A stretch of DNA of 64,000 bases from Rhodovulum kholense (GTDB lineage Bacteria > Pseudomonadota > Alphaproteobacteria > Rhodobacterales > Rhodobacteraceae). The position numbers and the translations under genes are program-made. The notes below the pieces were generated by a model. It was not told where the DNA came from and searched no databases. It worked only from the letters and a program-made list of their open reading frames with translations. Shown here piece by piece: positions 4,166 to 18,678 of this stretch. Location: assembly GCF_003053725.1 (NCBI RefSeq), contig NZ_QAYC01000008.1:1-64000 (forward strand), given 5' to 3'. Every line of letters starts with the position of its first letter. Position 1 is the first letter of the stretch.

Positions 4166-4337
4166 AGGCATCACCAACTGTCAATAGAGGACCAAAGCCT
4201 GAACAGAGCGAGCTAATAGACGCGGAACCCTCGAGACGCACGTCAAAGAAACCCCGTTTCCTGAATCTATCGCGTTATTGCGGTCACGAGGACCATCAAC
4301 TACCATATGTAGAATTTCGTCTGCTCCCGAGGTAACT

Positions 4338-5810
4338 ATGCCTAAGAAAATTCTGACGGTAGGTTTTCAACTGGCTACTGAAAACGCCGAAACAGCAGAG
4401 TTTCGTGATAAAACGTCACTCCTAGACTGGGACGTCATCTTGTTTAGGCCGGACGCGAGCAGTTACCTCTACAATGAGTACAAACCGTCTGAGTACTTGG
4501 GGAAAACTGCGCTCAATGATCGCAATTCCTTTGGCTTAAAAGAAGCTTGCGCTCATTGGAGACGAGAACTACAAGAAGCGGTTTCGAACGGAAAGACGGT
4601 TATTGTTCATCTCTCTAAACCTACTGAAGTTTATGTAGCTACCGGCACCAAAGAGCACTCGGGGACCGGCCGAAATCGACAAACAACTCGCCATGTAGAA
4701 ATTTTTTCGAACTTCAGAGCCCTGCCGATCATCGAGGATTGGACGGCGACGCATGGAAGCGCCATGACGCTGCGACCAGAATACCGCGAGCAGCTCTCAT
4801 CCTATTGGTCGAAGTTCGCTGACAAGTCTGTGTATGAAGTCGTTTTTGCAGAGGGCACCAAGGGTGCTTGCATAACGACCAAACATGGCAACCGGGCGGT
4901 TGGCCTAGCCTTCTCAAGCAAGTCTTCTGAGGGAAGTCTTCTCTTTTTGCCAGACCTAGATTTTGGTCCCGATGAGTTCTTCGAAGAGCGAGACGACGAG
5001 ATGTGTTTCACCGATGCTGCTCGGCAGTTTGCTGGATCGTATCTCAGCGAAGTGCTCAGTATCGACCAAGCATACAGACAAAGCTCTGCCAAGACGTCTG
5101 AACCTCAATGGGCGAAGGAAGAAACCTTTAGTCTTACAACAGAAAAGGGCCTTCGGGAAAAGTTGCTTCGCGCTGAGGAAGCGGTGGAAAAAGCTCAGCG
5201 GAAAAAGGAGGTTATCCAAAGTCAACTTGTCGAAGCAGGACAGTTGAGAGACCTTCTTTTTGAGACTGGTAGGCCGCTAGAGGCAGCTATTTTAAAAGCT
5301 CTAGAATTGATGGGTTTCGACGCTGAGCAGTACGAGGATGGAACCTCAGAGTTCGACGCCGTGTTTTCTTCTCCGGAAGGAAGACTTCTCGGTGAAGCCG
5401 AAGGCCGTGATAGCAAGCCAATCGCGATTGGAAAACTTCGACAGCTTACAATGAATATCCATGAAGATTTGGAGAGGGAGGAGGTGCAGGCTCCTGCTAA
5501 AGGGATTCTTTTCGGAAATGGCTTTAGATTGATAGCTCCTCACGAGCGCGAGCCTTCTTTCACGGACAAATGTGTAAGTTCTGCCGTATCCATGTCCATT
5601 GGACTAGTTGCAACATGCGATCTATTTGAGGTGGCGAGGTACCTATCTGAAAACAGTGACAAGAGATATGCAGAACTTTGCCGAACAACACTTGTAAAGA
5701 AAACCGGAATCATAAGGTTTCCAAATAGACCGATCAAAGCGGAGAGCGCTATATTAGGGAATCCACAGCGAATGTCCGCAAAGCGGGCTGCGACCGCAGA
5801 ACCCGAGTGA
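4338..5810 (+). CDS. Probable PD-(D/E)XK-like nuclease domain protein, horizontally acquired
   Basis: The 490-residue product has an N-terminal region of unknown fold (about 1-280) and a short charged helical stretch (about 280-310, EEAVEKAQRKKEVIQSQLVE). The C-terminal domain resembles restriction-endonuclease-like folds: a helix (ILKALELMGF), an Asp in EFDAVF (D340), then GEAEG (E353, E355) and a following Lys-rich turn and helix (KLRQL). The canonical ExK lysine is absent; K360 or K366 could substitute, or the site may be degenerate. Base composition is near half GC, far below its neighbours, and codon use differs. The ATG at 4338 is chosen because GAGGT precedes it by 6 bases; an upstream in-frame ATG lacks this. 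A TAGAAT element at 4312-4317 may be its own promoter. A defence role is possible but is inference. Confidence 0.6.
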   Translation: MPKKILTVGFQLATENAETAEFRDKTSLLDWDVILFRPDASSYLYNEYKPSEYLGKTALNDRNSFGLKEACAHWRRELQEAVSNGKTVIVHLSKPTEVYVATGTKEHSGTGRNRQTTRHVEIFSNFRALPIIEDWTATHGSAMTLRPEYREQLSSYWSKFADKSVYEVVFAEGTKGACITTKHGNRAVGLAFSSKSSEGSLLFLPDLDFGPDEFFEERDDEMCFTDAARQFAGSYLSEVLSIDQAYRQSSAKTSEPQWAKEETFSLTTEKGLREKLLRAEEAVEKAQRKKEVIQSQLVEAGQLRDLLFETGRPLEAAILKALELMGFDAEQYEDGTSEFDAVFSSPEGRLLGEAEGRDSKPIAIGKLRQLTMNIHEDLEREEVQAPAKGILFGNGFRLIAPHEREPSFTDKCVSSAVSMSIGLVATCDLFEVARYLSENSDKRYAELCRTTLVKKTGIIRFPNRPIKAESAILGNPQRMSAKRAATAEPE

Positions 5811-6184: not shown

Positions 6185-6504
6185 GCGTTAAGGACGCACC
6201 CTGCATTTCAATATGCTGTTTCTAATTTATTCCTATTTTTTACGATTCCCTTCACCCGCTCCACCTCACTCTTTCAGTACCTTCTGCCTCCGCGCATGAG
6301 ACGGGTCTGCCTTGACGGTCCGGCGCCGTCCCCAAGACCTGACCGCAGCGCCCCCCGGCCTGCGGCGGCACCGGGAAAGACCCTGGCGCTGGACCGGAAA
6401 TCGCCAGCTTGGGGCTGATCGGCCTGCCGGTCCCGCGATACGGCAGGCGGGCGGGGCGCATCTCTCGCCTGACCGGATTTTTTCGAATCTTTCCAAAATG
6501 CGAA

Positions 6505-6547
6505 CCTTGCGGTAACGTTGGGTCAAGGGGAGGCCCGACGTTTTAAT
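6505..6547 (+). promoter_or_regulatory. Candidate promoter with dyad operator for the oxylipin-type operon
   Basis: A 24-base dyad (CCTTG, 4 bases, AACGTT, 4 bases, CAAGG) spans 6505-6528. A -35-like TTGGGT (6518-6523) lies within it, and a -10-like TTTAAT (6542-6547) follows at an 18-base spacing. Transcription would start near 6554, about 55 bases before the ATG at 6609. The overlap of dyad and -35 suits a repressor or MerR-type regulator. No regulator gene is adjacent. Between 6185 and 6504 nothing further could be supported. Confidence 0.35.
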
Positions 6548-6608
6548 TTCCAGGCGCATCGTTTGCCCGGCAAGGCGTCCCATCTTCGTCGATACCAGGG
6601 GGGATCAG

Positions 6609-8492
6609 ATGAAGACTAATTCGAGAACGTTTTTGTCCGGATTTGCCATTGCACTGGCGCTCACGGCCGGAGTTTCACCGGCCCTTGCCCAGACCGATCC
6701 CGGCAGCGATGCCGCGACCTGCGCCCGGCGCGACGCGTTACAGCACGCGCTGGCCACGCAGCCGGATCTGACCTGGGAGGCGCTTCGCACCGCCTGTGCG
6801 GCGACGGTTGCCGCGGCAAAGTCCGCCGATCCCATCGGCCATGGCTGGTTCGTCAATGCCGGCAACGGGTTCATCGGCGTGCCTCTGGTCGTGCAGAAGA
6901 TCCTGCCCGATCTGGCGCCGGAAATCTGGGGCACGCCCGAGGATTTCTTCGGGGGGTTCGGGCTCTTTCCCGACCCCGACCTGACCGACCGCATCCTGCC
7001 GCGGGGCCTGGGCATCACCGGGGCCAACGGGCGGCCGGTCGCGGCCGATGGCAGCCCCTCGAGCGAGGTCGATTACAGCCAGCCGCAGCCGCTGTTCGTC
7101 ACGCTCGCCTGCGGCGCCTGCCATACCGGCCAGATCGATCTGGGCGACCGGCATCAGGTGATGGATGGCGCGCCCAACACCCAGTTCGACGTGCGCAAGT
7201 GGCGCGGCGCCTTCTCGGCGCTTCGCGAGGGCTATCTGTCGGACGCCCAGATCGGCACCGCCGAGGCTCCGGGCGAGACCACGAAAAAGCTGCTTGACAT
7301 CGTCGCGGTCAAGCCCGCGGGCTATTTCGCGCGCGGCTTGCCGCAGATCCGCGCCGACCAGATCGAGGCCGTTGACCAGACCCAGCGGGCGATCTTTGCG
7401 CAGAATGCCGTGCCGATCCTGTCGGGGCTGGCGCAAAGCACCGGCGTGCGCGCGGCCTCGGTCGCGCTCCAGACCCGGCCGGGGTCGAGCTATGGCCATG
7501 GCGACCGGTCCCCGGGTCTCGGCGGTCACAGCGCCGGGCAGTCGGATGGCAGCGGCGATCTCTTGTCGGACCTGTTGGCCGGACAGGCCGCAGCGCAGGG
7601 CAAGCTGACCGAGCTTCTGACCGGCCCGCTGCCCGAGGCCCTGCCCCGCTTTGCCACGGTGACCGACATCCCCGCGGTCTGGAACCAGGGCGACCGGTCG
7701 GTCGGGCAATGGGACGGCAGCGTGCTGGAACGGTTCTGGCGCAACATCGCGGCCGAGCTGCCGATCATCGGCGTGCCCGCCAAGGTCGATCTGATGAATG
7801 CCGGGATCAGCGCCGAATTCCTGCTGCGGCTGCCGCCCGCCCCCTATCCCTTCGAGGTCGATCTGGCCAAGGCCGCGGCGGGCGAGGCGCTGTTCGCCGA
7901 GAATTGCGGCACCTGCCACCGGCCGCGCAACGAGGCGCGCTATCCGGTGATCGGCACCGACATGAACCGCGCGCAGGTGCTGAACCCGGCGGGCAGCGCG
8001 ATGTTCCTCGCAGCCTTCCAGGCGGCCTGCCATGATCCGGAGTTCGGCTATACCGACACCTATGGCCGCCGGATCGAGCCTTGCACGATGCCCGCCTACC
8101 GCATCCTGCGCGACACCACCGAGGCCGCGAACCAGGGCTATCTGGCCCCGCCGCTCGACGGGATCTGGGCGCGCGCGCCCTATCTGCACAACGGCTCGGT
8201 CCCGACGCTGGCGCAATTGCTGAAACCGGCCAGCCGGGCGCCGGTCTTCCTGCGCGGCGTGATCGACTATGACCCGGACGAGGTCGGCTGGATGTGGCAA
8301 CCGGCCGATCTGGACAGCTACCGGGCCAGGTATCCGACCGTCTCGCTGCACGACACCGCGCGCGATGGCTGGTCCAATCGCGGCCATGACCGCGACCTGA
8401 TGATCGAGGGCCGGATGCACCGGCTCGACTGGAGCGACCCGGCCCTGTCCGACCAGGCCGGGGCCCTGATCGAATACCTCAAGACCCGGTAG
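6609..8492 (+). CDS. Periplasmic di-heme cytochrome c, RoxA / fatty-acid-dioxygenase-like
   Basis: The 627-residue protein has a cleavable signal peptide (cut expected after PALA, residue 27) and two covalent haem sites, CGACH at 168-172 and CGTCH at 433-437. The C-terminal block (PLDGIWARAPYLHNGSVPTL) is typical of the di-haem peroxidase branch that contains the rubber oxygenase RoxA and the two periplasmic Pseudomonas enzymes that make 10-hydroperoxy- and 7,10-dihydroxy-octadecenoic acid from oleate. The size also matches those enzymes better than the about 330-residue cytochrome c peroxidases. It is the first gene of an operon with catalase-like, cyclooxygenase-like and patatin genes, so a role in oxidising unsaturated lipids outside the cytoplasm is likely (inference). 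The start has GGGGGGA just upstream. An alternative is an electron-transfer or H2O2-reducing role. Confidence 0.75.
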   Translation: MKTNSRTFLSGFAIALALTAGVSPALAQTDPGSDAATCARRDALQHALATQPDLTWEALRTACAATVAAAKSADPIGHGWFVNAGNGFIGVPLVVQKILPDLAPEIWGTPEDFFGGFGLFPDPDLTDRILPRGLGITGANGRPVAADGSPSSEVDYSQPQPLFVTLACGACHTGQIDLGDRHQVMDGAPNTQFDVRKWRGAFSALREGYLSDAQIGTAEAPGETTKKLLDIVAVKPAGYFARGLPQIRADQIEAVDQTQRAIFAQNAVPILSGLAQSTGVRAASVALQTRPGSSYGHGDRSPGLGGHSAGQSDGSGDLLSDLLAGQAAAQGKLTELLTGPLPEALPRFATVTDIPAVWNQGDRSVGQWDGSVLERFWRNIAAELPIIGVPAKVDLMNAGISAEFLLRLPPAPYPFEVDLAKAAAGEALFAENCGTCHRPRNEARYPVIGTDMNRAQVLNPAGSAMFLAAFQAACHDPEFGYTDTYGRRIEPCTMPAYRILRDTTEAANQGYLAPPLDGIWARAPYLHNGSVPTLAQLLKPASRAPVFLRGVIDYDPDEVGWMWQPADLDSYRARYPTVSLHDTARDGWSNRGHDRDLMIEGRMHRLDWSDPALSDQAGALIEYLKTR

Positions 8493-8564
8493 AAGGCGGC
8501 CCCCGCCTTCCGCCGCCTTCTGCCCGGGCGCGCATCCCCGCCGCCGGTTGAGGAGACCCAGCAG

Positions 8565-10559
8565 ATGACCGATACGAGTATCCAGACGGTAACCGCCATC
8601 CAGATCGGGATGATGCGGGCGACCCAGCCGCAGCTGCGCGGCCAGCATTTCAAGATGCATGGCTGCGTCGAGGCGATCTTCGAGGTGGACGAGGTGGCGC
8701 CGCCGCTGAATGTCGGCCTCTTCGCCGCGCCGGGGCGCTACAAGGCGCTGGTGCGCTTTTCGAACGGCCGGGAGAAGGACGACCGCACGCCCGACATCCA
8801 CGGCATGGCGATCAAGGTGCTGGGCGTGGCGGGCGACAAGGCGCATCCCGACGCGCCCGAGGGCGAACAGGATTTCATCCTGGCCGACAACCCGGTCTTC
8901 TTCATCCGCACGGCCGAGGATTACGCGATCTTCATGCAGTCGCTGGCCAAGAATGCGCCGCGCGGTCAGCCCCCGGTCGAATTCATCGAACATCTGTCGA
9001 AGACCCATCCCGAAGACATCGCCGTCCTGCAGGGGTTCAACAAGCAGGTGCAGACAAGCCCGCTGAGCGCGGACTACTGGAGCCAGGTGCCCTATGGCTT
9101 CGGTCCCGACCCGGCCCATGCCTGCCGTTACCGCGCCACCCCGCGCGCCGGTGTCGCGACCGGGCCGGCGGGCGCGGGCCACGACTACCTGCGCGACGCG
9201 ATGGTGGCGGGTCTGGCCGAGGGCGCGGCACCTGTCGTCTTCGATTTCGGCGTTCAGCTGCGCAGCGATGCGGATGCGGCGGTGATAGACAATCCGACCG
9301 TCGAATGGGCGCCCGACTATGTCCCCGTGGCGACGGTCACGATCCCGCCGCAGGTCTTCGACACCCATGAGCGTCACGCCTTCGGCGAGGCGCTGCGCTA
9401 TTCGCCCTGGCATGCGCTGTCCGACCATCGCCCGGTCGGACAGGTCAACGAGATCCGCAAGGTGGTCTATCCGGCAAGCCAGACCGAACGGGCCCAGATC
9501 GCGCCGCTGGGCCAGGACAACCTGCGCCTGACCGAGGAAGAGCTGCGCGAGGGCATCGACGACGAGTTCAAGGCGCTGATCGACAAGCTCGCGCGGACCT
9601 TCGGGTTCCTGTCCAATACCAAGCGCGGCCGGGGCACCCATACCTGGGGCGTCGCGGGCCGTGGCACCGCGCGGTTCATCACCGATCCCGACTTCCCGGC
9701 CAATGACTTCTTCACCTTCGGCAAGGTGCTGCCGGTGATCCTGCGCCATTCCTCGCCCGGCGCGCGCGAGGACGACCGGGCGCGCGACGGGATGGCGGCC
9801 TCGGTCAAGTTCTTCTCGGGCGAGACCGGCCATGACGGGCCCGGCGTGCTCGATATCCTGATGAATGCCGGGCGCCAGCTTTTCGTCCGCTCGATCCAGG
9901 ATTTCAGCACTTTCGTCCATGCCAGCCCCGACGAGCGCAAGGAACTGGTCCGCCAGGGATTGATGATGGAGCCCGAGCTGATCGAGGCCTACCGCATTCG
10001 CGGGTCCTTCCTCGACAGCCGCTATCACAGCTGGCAGTGCTTCGAATTCTTCGACAGCGCGGGCACCCGGTCCTATATCCGCTTCCGCCTGATCCCCGGC
10101 GACCGCGGCCCCGAACGCGGCCTGCCCGAACCGGGCTTCCGCGCCGAGGGGGCGCCCTCGATGGACCCGGTCCCGGACGATCCGCGCGCGCCCGATTTCC
10201 TGCGTCAGGAATGGATCTATCAGGTGAAGCATTCCGAGGTGCGCTACATCCTGCAGGGCCAGATCCATCCCCAACCCGAGAACGTGCACCCCGATCACGA
10301 GGTGCTGAACCCGGCAAGGGCCTGGAACGAGATCCACTATCCCTGGCGCGATCTCTGCGAGATCCGGATCGACGAGCCGATCCTCGACAACGAGGCGGTC
10401 AGCGCGCTCGACATGACGCCGAACCGCAGCCCGGCCTGCATCCGCATCCCGCTGGCGACCTCGCCCACGCAATATGCCTCGCTCGGTCATGCCCGGGCGC
10501 TGGTCTATCCCGGCGCGCGCGCCGTCCGGGCCGCCGCCGAGAAGCCGCAGAACAACTGA
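8565..10559 (+). CDS. Long catalase-superfamily haem protein, possible lipid-hydroperoxide enzyme
   Basis: The protein has 664 residues and no signal peptide. Residues 1 to about 330 follow the SrpA-like catalase fold: RGQHFKMHG (distal His region), VRFSNG, HGMAIKVLG, DNPVFFIR and later RYSPWHALSDHRPVGQVNEI. The second half (about 350-664) is not a standard catalase tail but again shows catalase-like pieces (RGTARFITDPDFP, FFTFGKVLPVILRHSS), so the protein may hold two related domains. The usual proximal-Tyr motif (R.F.Y.DT) is not visible. In this superfamily some members, such as coral allene oxide synthase, convert fatty-acid hydroperoxides rather than H2O2. Placed 72 bases after the di-haem gene and 48 before the cyclooxygenase-like gene, it may process the hydroperoxide they make; this is inference. 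Confidence 0.65.
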   Translation: MTDTSIQTVTAIQIGMMRATQPQLRGQHFKMHGCVEAIFEVDEVAPPLNVGLFAAPGRYKALVRFSNGREKDDRTPDIHGMAIKVLGVAGDKAHPDAPEGEQDFILADNPVFFIRTAEDYAIFMQSLAKNAPRGQPPVEFIEHLSKTHPEDIAVLQGFNKQVQTSPLSADYWSQVPYGFGPDPAHACRYRATPRAGVATGPAGAGHDYLRDAMVAGLAEGAAPVVFDFGVQLRSDADAAVIDNPTVEWAPDYVPVATVTIPPQVFDTHERHAFGEALRYSPWHALSDHRPVGQVNEIRKVVYPASQTERAQIAPLGQDNLRLTEEELREGIDDEFKALIDKLARTFGFLSNTKRGRGTHTWGVAGRGTARFITDPDFPANDFFTFGKVLPVILRHSSPGAREDDRARDGMAASVKFFSGETGHDGPGVLDILMNAGRQLFVRSIQDFSTFVHASPDERKELVRQGLMMEPELIEAYRIRGSFLDSRYHSWQCFEFFDSAGTRSYIRFRLIPGDRGPERGLPEPGFRAEGAPSMDPVPDDPRAPDFLRQEWIYQVKHSEVRYILQGQIHPQPENVHPDHEVLNPARAWNEIHYPWRDLCEIRIDEPILDNEAVSALDMTPNRSPACIRIPLATSPTQYASLGHARALVYPGARAVRAAAEKPQNN

Positions 10560-10607
10560 CCCCACCGCCGCCTCCGTCCGGGGCCGGCCCGTGCCGAAAG
10601 TGACCGC

Positions 10608-12281
10608 ATGCCCACGAAGCTGAGAAATCACCCGCCGCGCGACGAGTCGGCCGACGGGCTGGAGAACCGGTTCGAGGCCCATGTCCTCAGCAACTACCCC
10701 GCGCTCTGGCGCTTCGTGATGTCGATCGAGCCGCTCCGGCGGTTTGCCAACCGGACGATCATCGACCTTGCCGTGCGGCGCGCGCGGTTCCGGCCGTCGC
10801 CCTACGGATCGATGGCGGTGCATGGGGACACGGCCAACGGCATGGCCGATTACACCTCGTGGGAGCTGATGATGGACCGCACCTGGTTCAAGCGGCACCT
10901 GCCGCCCGGCACGCTGGGCCAGGAGGGCGACAAGCGCGGGCCGCTGCCGCCGCTGGAAGCGCTTGAGGCGCTCTTTCGCACCCCGCCGGGCGAAGAGACG
11001 CTGTCCGAGAACAGCAGCCTGCTGTTTCCGTCCTTCGCGCAGTGGTTCACCGACGGCTTCCTGATGACCGACCCGTCGGATGTGCGAAAGACCCACACCT
11101 CGCATCATATCGACTTCAATCCGCTTTACGGACTCAGCCGCGCCGAAAGCGACGCGATCCGCGCGAAGTCGGAGGAGAAGGGCCATAAGGGCCGGCTGAA
11201 GACCGAAACCGACCCCGACACGGGCGAGGTCTGGGCGCCGCGCTATTTCGGCCCCGACGGCGAGGTGAAGCCCGAATTCAAGGCGCTGCGCCCGCCGTTG
11301 CGGCTGACCGAGTACCTGAACCTGGTGGGGTCGGAGCGCGCGGCCGAGATCAAGCCCACGATCTTCGCCTTCGCGGGCGAGCGCGCCAATACCTCGCCCT
11401 ATACCGCGATGCTGAACATCCTCTTCCTGCGCGAGCATAACCGTCTGGCCGGGCTGATCGAGGAGGCGAACCCCGACTGGGACGACGAGCGCGTGTTCCA
11501 GACCGCGCGGAACGTGAACATCTGCCTGCTGATCAAGATCGTGGTCGAGGAGTACATCAACCACATCTCGCCCTATCACTTCCAGCTGACGGCCGATCCC
11601 TCGGCCTGCTGGAACAAGCCCTGGAACAAGCCGAACTGGATCCCCATCGAGTTCAACCTGCTCTACCGCTGGCACAGCCTGACGCCCGACTATTTCGACC
11701 TTGCCGATACGCCAGTGCCAAGCGACCGGCTGCTTTTCGACAACAGCCATCTGACGAAACTGGGTCTCGGCCAGGCGATGCAGCGCGCCAGTACCCAGCG
11801 GGCCTGGAACATGGGGCTTCTGAACACGGCCGGGTTCCTGATCCCGGTCGAACTGGCCTCGGTCGCGCAGGGTCGCGCGCACCGGCTGGCCTCTTATAAC
11901 GACTACCGCGCGGCGGTGGGCTATGGGCGGGTTCGCCGGTTCGAGCAGATCACCGGCCATCCCGAACGGATCCGCCTCTTGAAAGAGCTCTACGACGGCG
12001 ATGTCGACAAGGTCGAATTCTTCGTCGGGCTCTTCGCCGAGGACGTGGCGCCGCGCGCGGCGGTGCCGCCGCTGATCGGACGGATGGTGGCGCTTGACGC
12101 CTTCTCGCAGGCGCTGACCAACCCGCTTCTGTCCGAACATGCCTTCAACCCGCGCACCTTCTCGAAGGTCGGCTGGCGCGAGATCCGGAAGACCACGCGC
12201 CTTCAGCAGATCCTCGACCGCAACCTCGGCGGCGATACCGGCCGCTATGCCATCACCATGACCCTTCCGACCCTGACCTGA
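10608..12281 (+). CDS. Cyclooxygenase-like animal haem peroxidase (prostaglandin H synthase type)
   Basis: The 557-residue protein belongs to the animal-type haem peroxidase superfamily and most resembles cyclooxygenases. EFNLLYRWHSLTPDYF matches the cyclooxygenase signature that carries the catalytic Tyr and proximal haem His; here these are Y353 and H356. FLREHNRLA (273-281) and FAQWFTDGF (143-151) are also conserved blocks. The residue aligned to the distal His of mammalian enzymes (in FTHQF) is Asp149, while the neighbouring Gln145 is kept. There is no signal peptide, EGF module or obvious membrane-binding segment. The expected reaction is dioxygenation of a polyunsaturated fatty acid by a tyrosyl radical, giving a hydroperoxide or endoperoxide. 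It is cotranscribed with a di-haem cytochrome, a catalase-like protein and a patatin. Product identity is unknown. Confidence 0.8.
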   Translation: MPTKLRNHPPRDESADGLENRFEAHVLSNYPALWRFVMSIEPLRRFANRTIIDLAVRRARFRPSPYGSMAVHGDTANGMADYTSWELMMDRTWFKRHLPPGTLGQEGDKRGPLPPLEALEALFRTPPGEETLSENSSLLFPSFAQWFTDGFLMTDPSDVRKTHTSHHIDFNPLYGLSRAESDAIRAKSEEKGHKGRLKTETDPDTGEVWAPRYFGPDGEVKPEFKALRPPLRLTEYLNLVGSERAAEIKPTIFAFAGERANTSPYTAMLNILFLREHNRLAGLIEEANPDWDDERVFQTARNVNICLLIKIVVEEYINHISPYHFQLTADPSACWNKPWNKPNWIPIEFNLLYRWHSLTPDYFDLADTPVPSDRLLFDNSHLTKLGLGQAMQRASTQRAWNMGLLNTAGFLIPVELASVAQGRAHRLASYNDYRAAVGYGRVRRFEQITGHPERIRLLKELYDGDVDKVEFFVGLFAEDVAPRAAVPPLIGRMVALDAFSQALTNPLLSEHAFNPRTFSKVGWREIRKTTRLQQILDRNLGGDTGRYAITMTLPTLT

Positions 12282-12309
12282 TCCCTGCCGCCGCCCGGAG
12301 CCCCGCGCC

Positions 12310-14547
12310 ATGCCCGACACCGCCAGCCCGCCCCCAGACACGCCAACCGGGGACGCACCGGTCTTCCTGATCGGCCTGACCATGGCGGGCGCGGTGTCGG
12401 CCGGGGCCTATTCGGCGGGCGTGCTCGACTATCTGTTCCGGGCGATCGACGCACATAACGCGCGGGTCCGGGCCGGTCCCAGCGCCGAGGACCCCGCGCC
12501 TCCGCGCCACAGGGTGGTGGTGAAGGTCATGACCGGTGCCTCGGCCGGCGGCATGTGCGCGGGCCTGACCCTGGCAGGCCTGCTGAAGGGCCACGCAGGC
12601 GCGGGCGAGGGCGCGCGGCTGTCCGAGGGGCGCCCGGTCGACTATCCCGCCGCCGACGGGACCACGGCGCAGTGCCGCGCGGCGCTCGAGCCGCTGTTCG
12701 ACGCCTGGGTCGATCAGATCCGGTTCTGGGACCCCGCGACCGAAACGGGGTTTCTGGCGACGAAGGATCTGGACGATCCCGCGCCGCTTCTGGGCGCGCC
12801 CGAACGGCCCAAGGGCGCGCCGGTACCGATTCTTTCCGTGCTCGATTCCTCGCATCTCGACGATGCGACGCGGGCCGCGCTGACCGGCGTTCCGCCGCTG
12901 GGCGGCAAGCCGCGCTATGACTTCCTGGCCAAGGACCTCGACGTCTTCGTGACGACGACCGGGCTGAACGGCGTGCTCTACCAGATCCGCTTTCCCGGCA
13001 GCGAATACCGGATGCAACAGCACGGGCTGTCGCGGCATTTCCGGGTGCATGGCCTTGGCGTGACCGAGCATCCGTCGGCCTGGCTCGACCGCTGGGGCGA
13101 CCGGGGGATCGCGCTCGACCCCGATCAGACGGATGCCGCCGGGACCGTGCCCTTCGTGTCGGACCCGGGCTCGCGCTGGTATGACATGACCGTCGCGGCG
13201 CTGGCCTCGGGGGCCTTTCCAGTGGGGCTCGCGCCCCGGACCATCGCGGCGACGCCGCTGCAGCTTGGCGCCTGGGACCCCGAAAACCCCTTCACCGAGG
13301 GCGGCGCGCTGACCATCGAGGCCGCGCCCGATCACATGGTCCTGCCGCGCCCCTATTTCGGCACCGGCACGGCGCTGACCGGGGCCGCGACCTATCTTGC
13401 GGTGGACGGGGGGGTGATCAACAACGAACCCTTCGACATCGCCCGGTTCACGCTGCGCCGGTCCGCGGCGGGGGCCGCGCTTCTGAGCAACGCCCGCGAG
13501 GGCAACCGGGCGGACCGCGCCGTCATCATGATCGATCCGTTCCCGCGCTCGCCCGATTACGCCGCGCTGACGATGGACGAGACCCTGCGACTGGGCGGAC
13601 TGCTGCCCAGCGTGATGCGGCTGTTCCCGACGCTGGTCAGTCAAGCACGGTTCAAGATCGACGAGCTGCTGCATGCCACCAACAGCGATGTGCATTCGCG
13701 CTTCATGATCGCGCCGGTGCGTTCAGAGACCGGGACCAGCCCCGCGGCCCGGGGGGCCGATGCCATCGCCTGCGGTGCGCTGGACGGGTTCAGCGGCTTC
13801 TTTGCGCGCGGCTTCCGGCTGCACGACTTCGTTCTGGGACAGCGCAACTGCCAGAAATTCCTCGAAAGCCACTTCCTGCTGGATGCCGACAACCCGATCC
13901 TGGCGCTCGACGCCGATCACCCGCACCTGCAGGCGGCCCGCGCGGCGCGGGCCAAGGGCGAGGCGATCCCCGAGGGGCTGCGCATCGTCGATCCCTGCGT
14001 GAGCCCCGGTGCCGGACTGGATGCCGAGATCCCGATGCCCGCCTGGCCGCAGATCGGCCTTGGCGCGCTGCAACAGATGCGGCGCCAGTTTCTCGTGCGC
14101 CTGACCCGGATCGGCGGGCATCTTTTCGACAGCCGCGCGATGGGCGGCATCGCGCAATGGGGGCTGAAGCGCCTGTGGCAGGGGCTTTGGCCGGTCTATC
14201 CGAAGGGGCTCAAGGGCGATGTCGGGGACGCGGCCGCCCGCGCGGTGCTGAAGGCCTTCCTGCTGCGGCGCCAGCTTGAGACCTCGGAAGATTTTTCGAC
14301 CGGGGTGCGCCTGGCCATGACCGCGCTGATCGACGCCCATGACGAGGCGCAGAGCGCCCGCGAGCTGCGCGAGCGGCTGACGAGGGCCCGCGAGACGGGG
14401 CTTTATCCCGCAACGCTCGAAATCCCGCAGCAGGCCGAGATCGAACGCGGGCTGCTCTGGATGCAAAGCGCCGGTCTGGCGCGCCGACCGCTGAGCAACA
14501 TCTTCGGCCCGCCGCGCTATGCGTTTTCCTCTGGGGACAACGGCTGA
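12310..14547 (+). CDS. Patatin-like phospholipase
   Basis: The 745-residue protein starts with a patatin domain: an oxyanion-type glycine-rich segment (LTMAGAVSAGAYSAG), the nucleophile elbow GASAG with Ser78, and the catalytic dyad partner in VDGGVINNEP (Asp366). It is much longer than plain patatins (about 350-400), with a C-terminal region of about 350 residues that I do not recognise. There is no signal peptide. Patatins hydrolyse acyl chains from phospholipids, which would supply free fatty acid to the cyclooxygenase-like and di-haem enzymes encoded just upstream (28-base gap). This mirrors phospholipase A2 feeding eicosanoid synthesis, but the link is inferred from gene order. It is the last intact gene of the operon; decayed genes follow. 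Confidence 0.8.
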   Translation: MPDTASPPPDTPTGDAPVFLIGLTMAGAVSAGAYSAGVLDYLFRAIDAHNARVRAGPSAEDPAPPRHRVVVKVMTGASAGGMCAGLTLAGLLKGHAGAGEGARLSEGRPVDYPAADGTTAQCRAALEPLFDAWVDQIRFWDPATETGFLATKDLDDPAPLLGAPERPKGAPVPILSVLDSSHLDDATRAALTGVPPLGGKPRYDFLAKDLDVFVTTTGLNGVLYQIRFPGSEYRMQQHGLSRHFRVHGLGVTEHPSAWLDRWGDRGIALDPDQTDAAGTVPFVSDPGSRWYDMTVAALASGAFPVGLAPRTIAATPLQLGAWDPENPFTEGGALTIEAAPDHMVLPRPYFGTGTALTGAATYLAVDGGVINNEPFDIARFTLRRSAAGAALLSNAREGNRADRAVIMIDPFPRSPDYAALTMDETLRLGGLLPSVMRLFPTLVSQARFKIDELLHATNSDVHSRFMIAPVRSETGTSPAARGADAIACGALDGFSGFFARGFRLHDFVLGQRNCQKFLESHFLLDADNPILALDADHPHLQAARAARAKGEAIPEGLRIVDPCVSPGAGLDAEIPMPAWPQIGLGALQQMRRQFLVRLTRIGGHLFDSRAMGGIAQWGLKRLWQGLWPVYPKGLKGDVGDAAARAVLKAFLLRRQLETSEDFSTGVRLAMTALIDAHDEAQSARELRERLTRARETGLYPATLEIPQQAEIERGLLWMQSAGLARRPLSNIFGPPRYAFSSGDNG

Positions 14548-14675
14548 GGTCGCGGCCGCGGGCAGATCGGCGCGGCGTGAACCGCGGGCGATTTCCCCAA
14601 GCGCACCGGTTCGAGCTTGCGGTGCCCTTTGCCGCCCCTTGTGCCCCCGCCTGCATGGCCGCCGGGCCGGAGCCC

Positions 14676-14774
14676 GTCGCCCCGGGCGAGATCCATATCG
14701 GCGGCTGGCGGGTCGAGGGCCTGGAACCGCGCGCGCGGGGCTGCGCCATGGTCTTCCAGACCTACGCGCATTAT
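14676..14774 (+). pseudogene. Fragment of a UgpC-type sugar ABC transporter ATPase
   Basis: About 33 codons read PGEIHIGGWRVEGLEPRARG followed by CAMVFQTYAHY. This corresponds to the stretch up to the Q-loop of sugar-importer ATPases (..G.I.IGGR.V..LEP..R..AMVFQ.YALYP). The Walker A region, signature motif and Walker B are missing, and the similarity stops abruptly where the next decayed gene begins in another frame. This is a relic of a carbohydrate uptake operon. Confidence 0.55.
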
Positions 14775-15568
14775 CGTCGGCGGCGGCCGCAGTCGTCCCG
14801 GACGGCTCGACCCGCTTCGCAGGATCTGCGCAGGGCGCGATCTGGTATTTTCCATCCATGGCCGCCTTGCGATCAACCTGATGGACGATCCCTGGCGGAT
14901 TGCGCAGCACATGCAGGTGCTCGAAGCCTCGCTCGAGGTGGCGGCCGAGATCGGGGCGGTGAATTACGTGCTGCATGGCGGGCTGACACCGCAACAGCAG
15001 GCACCCGGCGTCGAGGACGCCTTTGCCCGCGGGCAATCCGCCCCTGCCGAAGCCGCCGAGACGGCCCGCGCTGGGCGTGAACACCTGCGTCGAGGCGCTG
15101 TTCGCCGGCTATGTCGTCCGGATGCTGACAGCCTCGCCGCTGCGGCTGGCCCGGGACCTGGCCGGGATCGACCACCGCAATCTCTGGGCGACGATCATTT
15201 TAAGCCATGCCTGGCTGAAGCTGGGCTACGAAGGACAGCAGGCCGACTATCTCGACGAGATCGCCGGGCTGGCGCCGCGCGCGCGGCATCTGCACCTGCA
15301 TGACAGTTTCGGTCTTCAGGACGACCTCGAAATGCACAGCGACGGCGAGCGCGTGACCTTCGGCCATGGCGACCGGCATCTGCCGATGGACTGGGGCTCG
15401 ATTCCCCGGGACACCATCTTCGCGCGCTGCGACTTCCCCGAAAAGGTGATCCTGAGCCTCGAGATGAAGCCCCGGTTCCGGCACTCGGTCGCCGCGTCGG
15501 TTGCCCGGACGCGCGAAATTGCGGGCCGGACGCAGAGTATTTCACCGGCCCGGCACGCCTCGGCATAA
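14770..15568 (+). pseudogene. Frameshifted sugar phosphate isomerase/epimerase-like TIM-barrel gene
   Basis: The first part (about 14770-15035) encodes a barrel half with DLVFSIHGRLAINLMDDP and EIGAVNYVLHGG. The second part (about 15070-15568) continues in another frame with LARDLAGIDHRNLWATI, SHAWLKLGY, ARHLHLHDSFG and FGHGDRHLPMDWGSIP. These are typical of the xylose-isomerase-like family, with metal-binding His and Asp. The reading frame breaks between about 15035 and 15070, and the N-terminal start is lost against the ABC ATPase fragment, so no functional enzyme is expected. Confidence 0.6.
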
Positions 15569-15650
15569 CCTTGACGGACCCATCGTCTCCGTTGATGCGG
15601 AACGCGGCAGGAGGGCCGGGCGGATTCATCAGCGAAGAAAAGAACGCGGG

Positions 15651-16559
15651 GCCGGCCGCGCGCTGTCGCCCGAGCGGGCGACCCTGATGCTGAGAGCGTC
15701 CGAGACGTATTTCCGGCATGACGAGTCGCGCTCTGCCATCGGCGAGACTCTGGGGATCAGCAGCTTCAAGCTGGCGCGCCGGCTGCAGGAAGCGCGCGAG
15801 ACCGGCCTGGTCAACATCATCCGTCCCGCCCCGACGGGATCGCTGTGGCTTCGGGCGCTGCATCTTCGTACCCGCACAGCCCGACGACCGGGTGCTGCAG
15901 GTGCTGGCCGAGGCCGCAGCCTCCTGTCTGATCGAGCACACGGTCCAGAGCGCCATTCTTGGCGTCGCCTCAGGGCGCTCCACCAGCCGGGTGTCAAGGC
16001 TGATCCTGTCGCGGCCGCGCTGCACCCTGGTCCGGATCGCGGACGTGGCCCGTTCGACCAGCCTCCCGGACAACCCGACCGAAACCGTGCGGCGCATGGC
16101 GCAAATCGCCTCGGGGCCCTCCTGGCGGCTCTTCGCGCCGATCGTGCTGAGTTCGCGCGAGGCCGCCGAGACTCTGCGCAGGGAGCCGGGCATTGCCACC
16201 GCGCATGCGTTCTTCCCGCGACTGACCCGGGTGCTGATGACCACGGCACCCTGGGAACCCGGCGAATCGATGATCCACGATTCTATTCCGGCCGAGGATC
16301 AGGCGATGGTCGCGGCCTTTCATACGGCCGCGGATGTGCCGGCCAATGTGATCGACGACGGAGTCGGCAGGTTGCGCCCGACTTTACCGCCCGGGCCCTG
16401 TCGATCGCACTCGCGCAGCTGCGCGCGATGCCCGGCCTGAACATGGTGGCCGGCGGGCAGCGGCAGCAACCGGCGGTCCTGGCCTGCCTCAAGGCGCGTT
16501 TCGTCAATACTCGCATCACCGACAGCCGCACAGCGGATCTGTTTCTGAAAGCGGGCTGA
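15651..16559 (+). pseudogene. Decayed SorC/DeoR-type sugar-responsive regulator gene
   Basis: The N-terminal helix-turn-helix (ETYFRHDESRSAIGETLGIS, then KLARRLQEARETGLVNI) is that of SorC-type regulators. The effector domain continues in a second frame (about 15868-16370: DDRVLQVLAEAAASCLIEHT, TETVRRMAQIASGPSWRLFA). The last part (RALSIALAQLRAMPGLNMVA, ending ADLFLKAG) returns to the first frame. Two frame changes, near 15868 and 16370, interrupt the protein. Together with the two preceding relics it shows a degraded sugar or polyol catabolic locus. Confidence 0.6.
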
Positions 16560-16822
16560 GACCGGCGCAGGGCGTCTTTGGGGCCTCTGGGGCGGCTGCC
16601 GGACGTACCCCGCGGGACCGCACCGGACCGGGGCCGGGACCGACCCTGGCGCGCCCGGGGACAGTTGCGCCCGGAGGACGGGAAAACCGGGCCACCGGCT
16701 GTTGGCGGACCGGAGGCCGCCGCACGGACGCGGTCAGGGCTTGCCGCGCATCGGGCGGGTCGCGACGAAGTGATCGAAGCCCGCTTGCCGCGACTCGCCG
16801 CTCCTGCCTAGGTGGATACGAG

Positions 16823-17194: not shown

Positions 17195-17293
17195 ACCTCT
17201 TGCATCCGCCGCAAGCCCGGCCCGGTGCGACCGGAGGGCTGCGGACCCCGCTCATCCGCGCCTCGCGGGAGGCGCTGTCGTTCAGGAAACATC

Positions 17294-17764
17294 ATGAAAT
17301 CCCTTCTCGTCGCAACCGCTCTTGCGCTTGCCTCCACCACGGCCGTCGCGGACGGCAACGCCTCTGGTCACAGCCATGGCCAGTCCTCCATCGGCCAGCC
17401 CGGCAGTGCCGCCGAGGCCGATCGCAGCGTCACGATCCGCATGGTCGAGACCGCCGACGGCATGGGCTTCGAGCCCGCCGCGCTTGACGTCAAACAGGGC
17501 GAAACGATCCGCTTCGAGGTCGAGAACACCGGCCACATGGATCACGAGATCGTCCTCGGCACCGTCGAGGGCAACCGCGCGCATATGCAGAAGATGGCCG
17601 AGATGGGCCCGATGCGGCACCACGACCCGAACGCCCTGCAGCTTGCGCCGGGCGAAGCGGGCGAGCTGGTCTGGACCTTCTCCGAACCGGGCAGCGTCCA
17701 GTTCGCCTGCCTCATCATGGGCCATATGGAGGCCGGGATGCACGGCACCATCACCGTCAACTGA
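17294..17764 (+). CDS. Periplasmic cupredoxin (plastocyanin/azurin-like, copper tolerance type)
   Basis: The 156-residue protein has a clear signal peptide (ends near AVADG), a His-rich linker (SGHSHGQSS) and a cupredoxin domain. The ligand pattern is visible: His in GHMDHEIVLG and the Cys-His-Met loop CLIMGHMEAGM near the C-terminus, consistent with a blue-copper site. The region between is unusually rich in Met and His (HMQKMAEMGPMRHHDP), which may bind additional copper. The start ATG at 17294 has AGGAA upstream; the longer frame has no such site. It lies between the small Cys protein and a DUF411 gene and ahead of a multicopper oxidase, pointing to periplasmic copper handling. Confidence 0.8.
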   Translation: MKSLLVATALALASTTAVADGNASGHSHGQSSIGQPGSAAEADRSVTIRMVETADGMGFEPAALDVKQGETIRFEVENTGHMDHEIVLGTVEGNRAHMQKMAEMGPMRHHDPNALQLAPGEAGELVWTFSEPGSVQFACLIMGHMEAGMHGTITVN

Positions 17765-17822
17765 AGATCGTCCCCCCGCGCACGGGGCGACCGGCCCCGT
17801 GCCCCGGATCAGGAGCACTGAC

Positions 17823-18311
17823 ATGACCAATGCAAAACCCACCCGCCGCACCGTCCTGTTCGGGGGCGCGGCCCTCGGGATCGCCGCCGCCCTGCCGCTG
17901 GCCGCGCGCGCGGCCAGCCCGGCCAGCCCGAGGATGCATGTGCTGAAAGACCCCAATTGCGGATGCTGCACCGCCTGGATCGACATCCTCAGGGCCGAGG
18001 GGTTCGAGGTGACCGTCGAGGCGTCCAGAGGCACCGCGCTCGCCCGCTTCAAGACCCGCAACGGTATCCCGCGCAGCATGATCTCGTGCCATACCGGCAC
18101 TATCGAGGGCTACATGATCGAGGGCCACGTGCCCGTGGCCGACATCCGCCGTCTGCTGGACGAGCGGCCCGAGGCCGTGGGTCTGGCCGTGCCCGGCATG
18201 CCGATGGGATCGCCCGGCATGGGGCCGGAAAGCCGCCGCGACGCCTATGACGTCCATCTGATCCGGCGCGACGGATCGACCGAGATCTTCGCCCGCTACG
18301 ACGCGGCGTGA
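17823..18311 (+). CDS. DUF411 metal-binding protein
   Basis: The 162-residue product has a twin-arginine-like export signal (PTRRTVLFGGAALG) and the DUF411 core, with NCGCCTAWID right after the first strand and later GIPRSMISCHTG, EGHVPVADI and GLAVPGMPMGSPGM. DUF411 proteins are usually found beside copper resistance genes; the Cys and Met residues are likely ligands, though the biochemical role is not settled. The start was chosen at 17823, preceded by GGAG (CAGGAGCACTGAC); the longer open frame overlaps the cupredoxin gene in another frame. It lies 58 bases after the cupredoxin gene. Confidence 0.8.
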   Translation: MTNAKPTRRTVLFGGAALGIAAALPLAARAASPASPRMHVLKDPNCGCCTAWIDILRAEGFEVTVEASRGTALARFKTRNGIPRSMISCHTGTIEGYMIEGHVPVADIRRLLDERPEAVGLAVPGMPMGSPGMGPESRRDAYDVHLIRRDGSTEIFARYDAA

Positions 18312-18339
18312 CCCGGCCGCGATCCTGAAACGACAGCTT

Positions 18340-18360
18340 CGGGCGGCCCACCGCCGCCCG
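18340..18360 (+). terminator. Hairpin after the DUF411 gene
   Basis: CGGGCGGC and GCCGCCCG form a perfect 8-bp stem with a CCACC loop, 29 bases after the DUF411 stop. There is no T-run. The rest of the gap to the next gene (18361-18678) shows no coding region and probably carries the multicopper oxidase promoter. Confidence 0.4.
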
Positions 18361-18678
18361 GGGCAGCTTGCCGTGCCGCCCCGCGCGGGGCCGCGGAGCC
18401 CGGCGCGGCCGATGCGCCCCGCGGTCCGAGCGGACGGCCCGCGGGCGCCACCCTGCCGCCCGGACCCGGGCGGCGCGCCCCGGAGGCCACAGGCCCCAAG
18501 GCACCAAAGGTCGACGCCCCCGTCCCTGTCCCCGACCCCGATCGCAAGCCCCAACGGAAGCTCGCCCCGGACGGTTGGCGTGGCGTCAGGTCTCTGCCTT
18601 GAAGGGAATCGGTCCCCGTGAGAGACTTCTGGAATAGTTCCGAGAATTTTCAGCACTCAATCGACGGGGGAATAATTC

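Follow-up and report, generated by a model that had tools for sequence, protein, structure and literature searches.

What does a bacterium gain from setting a cyclooxygenase-like protein beside a relative of catalase, a di-haem cytochrome c and a patatin-like phospholipase? This question is raised by four consecutive genes of the alphaproteobacterium Rhodovulum kholense, which lie in a window of 64,000 nucleotides (NCBI RefSeq assembly GCF_003053725.1, contig NZ_QAYC01000008.1, positions 1 to 64,000; "the window" below is this whole stretch). The original prediction held that they form a complete, prostanoid-like oxylipin pathway. The data presented here suggest that the locus is probably a modular fatty-acid-hydroperoxide (oxylipin) operon, a reading drawn from gene content, residues and linkage in which the activities are predicted. 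The oxylipin part of the prediction is upheld by 10S-DOX-type motifs in gene 3, by the allene-oxide-synthase-like C half of gene 2 and by the recurrent linkage of dioxygenase, catalase-related protein and cytochrome. As had been described, the four genes are intact and co-directional with gaps of 28-72 bases: their open reading frames (ORFs) run without internal stops on the + strand, gene 2 as a whole spans 8565-10559 (664 aa), and the gaps are 72, 48 and 28 bp in order. The Pfam families are RoxA-like (gene 1, 4.4e-20), Catalase (gene 2, 4.1e-9), An_peroxidase (gene 3, 3.7e-43) and Patatin (gene 4, 1.3e-8), and the G+C content at third codon positions (GC3) is 0.87-0.89 in each gene.

The predicted chemistry turns on gene 3. 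When its product was compared with proteins of solved structure, the best relative was cyclooxygenase-2 (COX-2, 1.1e-50), whereas peroxinectin, lactoperoxidase and alpha-dioxygenase reached only about 1e-13, and its identity to COX-2 was 32.5% across 434 aligned positions. The earlier description of a cyclooxygenase-like haem peroxidase with a catalytic Tyr and a proximal His was confirmed, as Tyr353 and His356 lie in the motif YRWH and are joined by a central Tyr316 (COX 385, 388 and 348, respectively). Tyr-Arg-x-His is conserved in 31 of 31 rows when gene 3 is aligned with 30 bacterial relatives, among which row L039 is a broken gene; L039 comes from a further genome of the family (G327), carries three in-frame stops and is decaying. 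The distal helix of gene 3 reads FTDGF (147-151), with Asp149 replacing the distal His207 of COX (FTH207). F349xxxY353 forms the FxxxY motif, a Y-I-x-x-I central motif is also present, and the terminal motif is D497AFSQA502, with Ala498 at the place of COX Ser530; the G469-R motif start is not kept. FTD, FxxxY and Asp-Ala-Phe-x-Gln-Ala are among the key residues of the Nostoc 10S-DOX tabulated in passages of a 2026 review (PMC13049297). By its motifs gene 3 is of the 10S-DOX type, its catalysis being predicted. Because distal His207 and Ser530 are both replaced, the expected product would be a linear hydroperoxide and not an endoperoxide. On the strength of Asp149 at His207 and Ala498 at Ser530 a true cyclooxygenase or prostaglandin endoperoxide synthase was also rejected, and the label "prostanoid-like" is not supported. 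Monounsaturated fatty acids predominate in alphaproteobacteria, which is why oxidation of oleate by a 10S-DOX is relevant here. According to passages of the same review, 10S-DOX oxidises both oleate and linoleate (PMC13049297).

Gene 2 had been described as a long catalase-superfamily protein. The superfamily was correct, but the protein is not a single long catalase; it consists of two catalase-related domains in tandem (N and C). The closest solved structure to the C domain by sequence is coral allene oxide synthase (1u5u, phmmer E 1.3e-30), a relation to which the original prediction had pointed. Thr358-His359, Asn434 and Arg644-x3-Tyr648 of the C domain correspond to Thr66-His67, Asn137 and Arg349-x3-Tyr353 of the coral enzyme, which we take to be the defining residues of the allene oxide synthase/hydroperoxide lyase family. 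The C half thus resembles coral allene oxide synthase, haem-site residues included, and a related activity is predicted. A plain catalase was rejected for gene 2, since the Pfam Catalase model matches it in partial stretches with a score of just 36.5 bits, and since allene oxide synthase is the closest match to the C domain. The N domain has the catalase fold, a distal His (His28) and Arg298-x3-Tyr302; Gln27 precedes His28, so that there is no Thr at this place, and the distal Asn position is not confidently alignable. The isolated N half had no phmmer match at E 0.1, although matches were obtained with the full-length protein and with a profile. Structure matches to the AlphaFold model of the N half fail to separate catalase-related proteins from catalases, and this comparison covered the N half.

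Gene 1 was named a periplasmic di-haem cytochrome c, and this agrees with its CXXCH motifs at 168 (CGACH) and 433 (CGTCH), its MauG-type motif PYLHNGSVP at 524 and an N-terminus that looks by eye like an export signal; a C-terminal NxGH (NRGH 590) is also present. It shares with FadCcp the CXXCH pair, the MauG-type motif, a size of ~65 kDa and export, with an inter-haem spacing of 265 compared to 235-245 in FadCcp. A profile of gene 1 and six relatives matches RoxA (2e-22). In this comparison Gln367-Trp368 align to RoxA Phe301-Trp302, and the position of RoxA F317, which is Phe in FadCcp, aligns at or near Ile386. A Gln-Trp pair at these two RoxA positions is also reported for PA2077, which is a 10S-dioxygenase of Pseudomonas. 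Against the curated model NF040606 (di-heme-cytochrome C peroxidase) gene 1 scored 135.3 bits where the cut-off is 150, which places it outside that subfamily, and against the RoxA, RoxB and RoxC equivalog models it scored 46-66 bits where the cut-offs are 900-1000. Because it lies below the first cut-off and far below those of the rubber-oxygenase models, gene 1 belongs to the superfamily as a divergent protein that is FadCcp-like by sequence and not a proven FadCcp; rubber oxygenase identity was rejected. A second RoxA-like di-haem peroxidase is encoded in the same Rhodovulum genome away from the operon (contig C3, L068 6328-7962; 449 bits to NF040606).

The dyad of the patatin-like phospholipase (gene 4) was found exactly at the residues given before, Ser78 in GASAG and Asp366 in DGG, and the protein scores 35.8 bits against the Pfam Patatin model (gathering score 27.7). 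The dyad is kept in five distant relatives of 30-31% identity (L049-L053, with L049 and L051 near copies). On a plasmid of Calothrix PCC 6303 (L050 6311-14235) a patatin relative of gene 4 lies beside a GMC oxidoreductase, with a distant An_peroxidase gene nearby.

Conservation of the locus was examined at two scales. Within the genus, proteins 1 to 4 are 93-98% identical to those of Rhodovulum visakhapatnamense JA181, and codon position 3 holds 88 of 135, 83 of 105, 42 of 55 and 91 of 132 base differences between the two copies of the four genes in order. Because the differences fall mostly at codon position 3, each of the four genes seems to be under purifying selection, read from the third-position excess and not from a formal ratio of nonsynonymous to synonymous rates (dN/dS). 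Across genomes, gene-3 relatives (E <= 1e-20) are sporadic, with 8 in 394 genomes of the family, 3 in 385 of the class, 1 in 125 of Paracoccus and 5 in 111 of Methylobacterium. A catalase-related gene adjoins the dioxygenase in both Rhodovulum species, Paracoccus yeei, G616 (an alphaproteobacterium of another family), Methylobacterium G964, M. currus and Ruegeria, and the cytochrome is linked in Rhodovulum, P. yeei, G616, G685 and Sinorhizobium fredii. All three occur together in Rhodovulum, in P. yeei (one draft assembly and at least four plasmid records, with a single catalase-related domain and no patatin) and in G616, where their orientation is divergent; two of the lists of records behind this cover 30 of 60 and 40 of 122 records. 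The original prediction had looked to conserved co-occurrence of the four genes as a check; linkage of the full set did not extend beyond two of 16 Rhodovulum genomes, while overlapping sub-sets were found in other lineages. In a Qingshengfaniella plasmid (L074 2395-8728) a distant animal-type haem peroxidase, a gene-1-like cytochrome c and an alpha/beta hydrolase are clustered.

In 5 of 20 genomes that carry a dioxygenase, a catalase-related gene lay no more than 4 kb from it. The 20 do not include G327, where the gene is broken, G970 and G788, which repeat the match of G790 and the contig of G005, respectively, or G792, whose 9.3-kb contig (L005, P450 type) holds no catalase-related gene. 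The chance of this is about 6e-11, or about 1e-8 when Rhodovulum is counted once. When the N domain was searched for in these 20 genomes and G685, six loci had E < 1e-40; five adjoin the dioxygenase, and the sixth (G685) lies next to a relative of gene 1 and another di-haem gene. Weaker loci, nine in the same 21 genomes and five in 114 further genomes of the class, had no sought partner in the stretches covered. The line at E 1e-40 was set after the scores were known.

The partners of the dioxygenase are not constant, and the way in which they vary bears on the predicted function. On a tree of 27 gene-3 rows, seven have a catalase-related neighbour, seven a P450 and 13 no sought partner; the tree leaves out L012 and L019 (near copies), L039 (broken), L050 (distant), COX-2 and Ruegeria conchae L073, and cyanobacteria are represented by one Acaryochloris row. 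The dioxygenase lies directly behind a P450 in L013 (where the genes overlap), L014, L018, L002 and L005-L007, from rhizobia and other alphaproteobacteria. Across well-supported branches there are at least five changes of the catalase label and at least three of the P450 label, so gain, loss or exchange of partners happened repeatedly. Clustering on the tree is seen for the P450 label, where 11 of 500 shuffles reached as low a value.

The dioxygenase itself also seems to have a substitute. The symbiotic plasmid pNGR234a of S. fredii NGR234 (408-416 kb; L049 7199-15161) has the Rhodovulum order, in which the cytochrome is followed by the two catalase-related domains (N before C), a candidate dioxygenase and the patatin, but the place of the COX-like gene is taken by a di-haem cytochrome c peroxidase of 596 aa (491 bits to NF040606). 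The Pseudomonas dioxygenase is of this class of di-haem proteins. Identities to the Rhodovulum proteins are 44% for the gene-1 relative (in pieces), 50% for the N domain, 60% for the C domain (split) and 30% for the patatin. S. fredii CCBAU 25509 has only a remnant of the operon left, and search matches suggest that three further records of Sinorhizobium are alike in this. In G685 the N domain is accompanied by a gene-1 relative and a di-haem gene 31% identical to the S. fredii one, truncated near the contig end. On a Bradyrhizobium barranii plasmid (L070 2055-10216) a P450 lies directly downstream of a di-haem protein, with an oleate hydratase ~3 kb upstream, which suggests a fatty-acid modifying locus. 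This P450 is 37-42% identical to the dioxygenase-linked P450s, and the di-haem protein is 41% identical to that of S. fredii. The S. fredii and B. barranii arrangements thus indicate that either candidate dioxygenase, COX-like or di-haem, can be combined with either type of second enzyme. Two further loci with a relative of the S. fredii di-haem cytochrome c peroxidase were inspected, in R. ruizarguesonis and S. fredii NXT3, and neither has such an annotated neighbour.

The following course of events would fit these genes. The patatin would release an unsaturated fatty acid from membrane lipid; in the genus Rhodovulum this is mainly cis-vaccenate. Gene 3, judged by its motif identity with a characterised enzyme, would use a haem-generated Tyr353 radical to form a fatty-acid hydroperoxide. 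The C domain of gene 2 would convert this by dehydration or rearrangement, as its haem-site residues and the coral and Nostoc precedents suggest, and the N domain may cleave the hydroperoxide or carry out a second conversion. The exported gene 1 product may act on fatty acids or hydroperoxides arriving in the periplasm and oxygenate or isomerise them, as PA2077/PA2078 do. Support for the second and third steps comes mainly from genomes in which COX-like and di-haem proteins, and likewise catalase-related proteins and one P450 subfamily, replace each other. A bolder form of this, which we put forward tentatively and regard as possible without expecting it, is a plug-and-play oxylipin operon. 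It would have a hydroperoxide-making slot (a COX-like enzyme of the 10S-DOX type or a di-haem FadCcp-like one) and a converting slot (a catalase-related protein or one P450 subfamily), exchanged across genomes and several times on plasmids, together with lipid release by the patatin and a periplasmic di-haem arm; the two-domain enzyme of Rhodovulum might then route one hydroperoxide to two products.

Several observations weigh against a single, widely kept oxylipin operon. By eye, gene 1 has an export signal and genes 2-4 have none, so that a single linear pathway would need transport; as the activities are also predicted ones, the word "complete" in the original prediction was not borne out. 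The full set is rare, as gene 3 occurs in two of 16 Rhodovulum genomes, each with all four genes, and the set was seen nowhere else; the C domain of gene 2 occurs in one of 385 genomes of the class, and patatin linkage is limited to Rhodovulum and S. fredii, where the NGR234 copy is decayed, with broken cytochrome and catalase-related genes. The nearest gene 3 outside Rhodovulum (Cypionkella, 70%) stands alone in a genome with no gene-1 match, and the 13 of 27 dioxygenase rows with no sought partner refer to the stretch examined, which in L066 has less than 700 bp upstream. The catalase label is unclustered on the tree (244 of 500 shuffles as low), which is compatible with exchange and also with simple scatter. 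Three of the 14 unlinked N-domain stretches are shorter than 6.1 kb. Two Nostoc plasmid loci (L054 and L055) have strong N-domain matches (E 4e-48 and 6e-42) and no dioxygenase, cytochrome, P450 or patatin relative within the 16 kb taken, A. baumannii matches lying outside this comparison, whereas the Ruegeria copy, although linked, matches weakly (5e-28), so the rule that strong matches are linked and weak ones are not is not general. Finally, the AlphaFold models are poor: the mean predicted local distance difference test score (pLDDT) is 41.7 for gene 1, which makes it unusable, and 46.9 for gene 2, of which only the N half is usable.

Some of these observations would suit a smaller oxylipin unit, one that overlaps with the preferred operon and consists of dioxygenase and catalase-related protein as in Nostoc, perhaps with the cytochrome, the patatin being a bystander or the cytochrome having an unrelated periplasmic role. 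The cytochrome is in a different compartment, and P. yeei, G616 and G964 have no gene-4 match at E <= 1e-10. However, S. fredii retains the same order with cytochrome, both catalase-related domains, candidate dioxygenase and patatin, and in Rhodovulum the patatin follows after 28 bp and the third-position excess is found in all four genes; taken together, this makes the smaller unit somewhat unlikely. A different role altogether would be defence against lipid peroxides and H2O2, with the patatin stripping peroxidised acyl chains and the catalase-, peroxidase- and cytochrome c peroxidase-like proteins destroying peroxides. Databases annotate these families as catalase or peroxidase, and all three haem families include peroxide-removing enzymes. 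Yet gene 3 has Asp for the distal His of COX and retains the dioxygenase Tyr, the C domain of gene 2 has Thr-His like coral allene oxide synthase, and the dioxygenase is found with a P450 as often as with a catalase-related protein (7 and 7 of 27), antioxidant partners not having been systematically sought. We consider defence quite improbable. The RoxA-like nature of gene 1 might also suggest rubber-oxygenase-like degradation of isoprenoids or of another hydrophobic polymer or pollutant, but with the rubber-oxygenase scores as low as given above, and with the remaining genes from families that act on lipids or lipid peroxides, this is scarcely credible.

A fatty-acid-hydroperoxide operon of this kind has partial precedents. 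According to Brash et al. 2014 (J Biol Chem 289:13101) as cited in passages of PMC13049297, Nostoc punctiforme has a 10S-DOX (UniProt B2J5P4) and a catalase-related 10S-hydroperoxide lyase. Judged by the published residues, the Rhodovulum pair is alike in joining a COX-superfamily dioxygenase to a catalase-related protein and in having Asp for the distal His, the Tyr, the proximal His and DAFxQA; it differs in the tandem two-domain form of the catalase-related protein and in the addition of a patatin and a di-haem cytochrome c. PA2077/PA2078 (FadCcp) of Pseudomonas aeruginosa, an oleate diol synthase, form a di-haem oxylipin operon (passages of PMC4496055 and PMC6377657). At the level of motifs they are like gene 1 in having a pair of CXXCH and a MauG-type motif, to which similar size and export are added, and PA2077 also has Q/W at RoxA F301/W302, but those passages name no COX-like, catalase-related or patatin gene there. 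The coral allene oxide synthase-lipoxygenase fusion (1u5u, 3dy5) resembles the C domain of gene 2 in sequence and haem-site residues, whereas in gene 2 this domain is fused to a second catalase-related domain and not to a lipoxygenase, and the dioxygenase next to it belongs to the COX superfamily. Fungal linoleate diol synthases (dioxygenase-P450 fusions, DOX-P450) and animal COX with P450 isomerases also pair a dioxygenase with a peroxide-rearranging haem enzyme. The seven gene-3 relatives that adjoin a P450 are an unfused counterpart of the fungal fusions, while the Rhodovulum window has a catalase-related protein as second enzyme, encoded apart from the dioxygenase. No description of a Rhodovulum-type operon, of the tandem catalase-related protein, of the added patatin and di-haem cytochrome or of slot exchange was found among Creative Commons (CC)-licensed PMC papers, whose matches were covered in part. 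The pairing of genes 2 and 3 is therefore of a known kind, and the tandem protein, the extra genes and the slot exchange look new. The original prediction knew of no pathway combining all four proteins; this stands for the full set, but the core pair was already known from Nostoc and a di-haem oxylipin operon from Pseudomonas.

To our knowledge, bacterial oxylipin producers besides Pseudomonas are scarcely known. The operon and its recurring swaps point to candidate loci in Rhodovulum, Paracoccus, Methylobacterium, Ruegeria and rhizobia, several of them on plasmids, and in Pseudomonas oxylipins are signals (passages of PMC6377657). They also offer an enzyme set for asking how COX-type dioxygenases became joined to P450 or catalase-related partners. 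If the plug-and-play proposal is true, it sets the animal, coral and fungal solutions together within one bacterial gene family. An enzyme in which two catalase-related domains are fused, one of them closest to coral allene oxide synthase, would represent a new architecture for a biocatalyst.

Table 1. Features of the oxylipin locus and its edges in the R. kholense window.
Feature	Positions	Strand	Remark
Upstream conserved region, possible promoter/leader	6459..6608	+	blastn block shared with R. visakhapatnamense
Gene 1, di-haem cytochrome c, RoxA-like superfamily (FadCcp-like), 627 aa	6609..8492	+	
Gene 2 N domain, catalase-related	8565..9539	+	closest solved structure: M. avium 33-kDa protein
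Gene 2 C domain, allene-oxide-synthase-like catalase-related	9540..10559	+	phmmer 1u5u E 1.3e-30
Gene 3, cyclooxygenase-superfamily dioxygenase, 10S-DOX type (predicted), 557 aa	10608..12281	+	
Gene 4, patatin-like phospholipase, 745 aa	12310..14547	+	Ser78/Asp366 dyad
Boundary stretch outside the operon, sugar-utilisation gene fragments	14578..16742	+	absent from the matching place in R. visakhapatnamense

The features of the locus are collected in Table 1. By blastn, 6459-14577 aligns to L001 1913-10016 of R. visakhapatnamense at 94%, so that the alignable block starts 150 bp 5' of gene 1 and ends 30 bp past the patatin gene. A promoter scan gave no sigma-70-like match in the 150 bp upstream, and the promoter and terminator scan was uninformative overall (one promoter-like and six terminator-like sites compared to 0.8 and 4.4 expected). 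The 2.2 kb of the window behind the block, which are missing from the same place in R. visakhapatnamense, contain a piece of a xylose-isomerase-like TIM barrel (15023-15568) and a piece of a sugar-binding regulator (15718-16440), and are apparently a decayed insertion immediately 3' of the operon. On the 5' side, a 510-aa ORF at 4278-5810 with no Pfam match, whose GC is unusually low (0.49, GC3 0.47), is probably a recent acquisition. Past the operon region, at 17225-21000, the window holds cupredoxin and multicopper oxidase genes that are conserved with R. visakhapatnamense.

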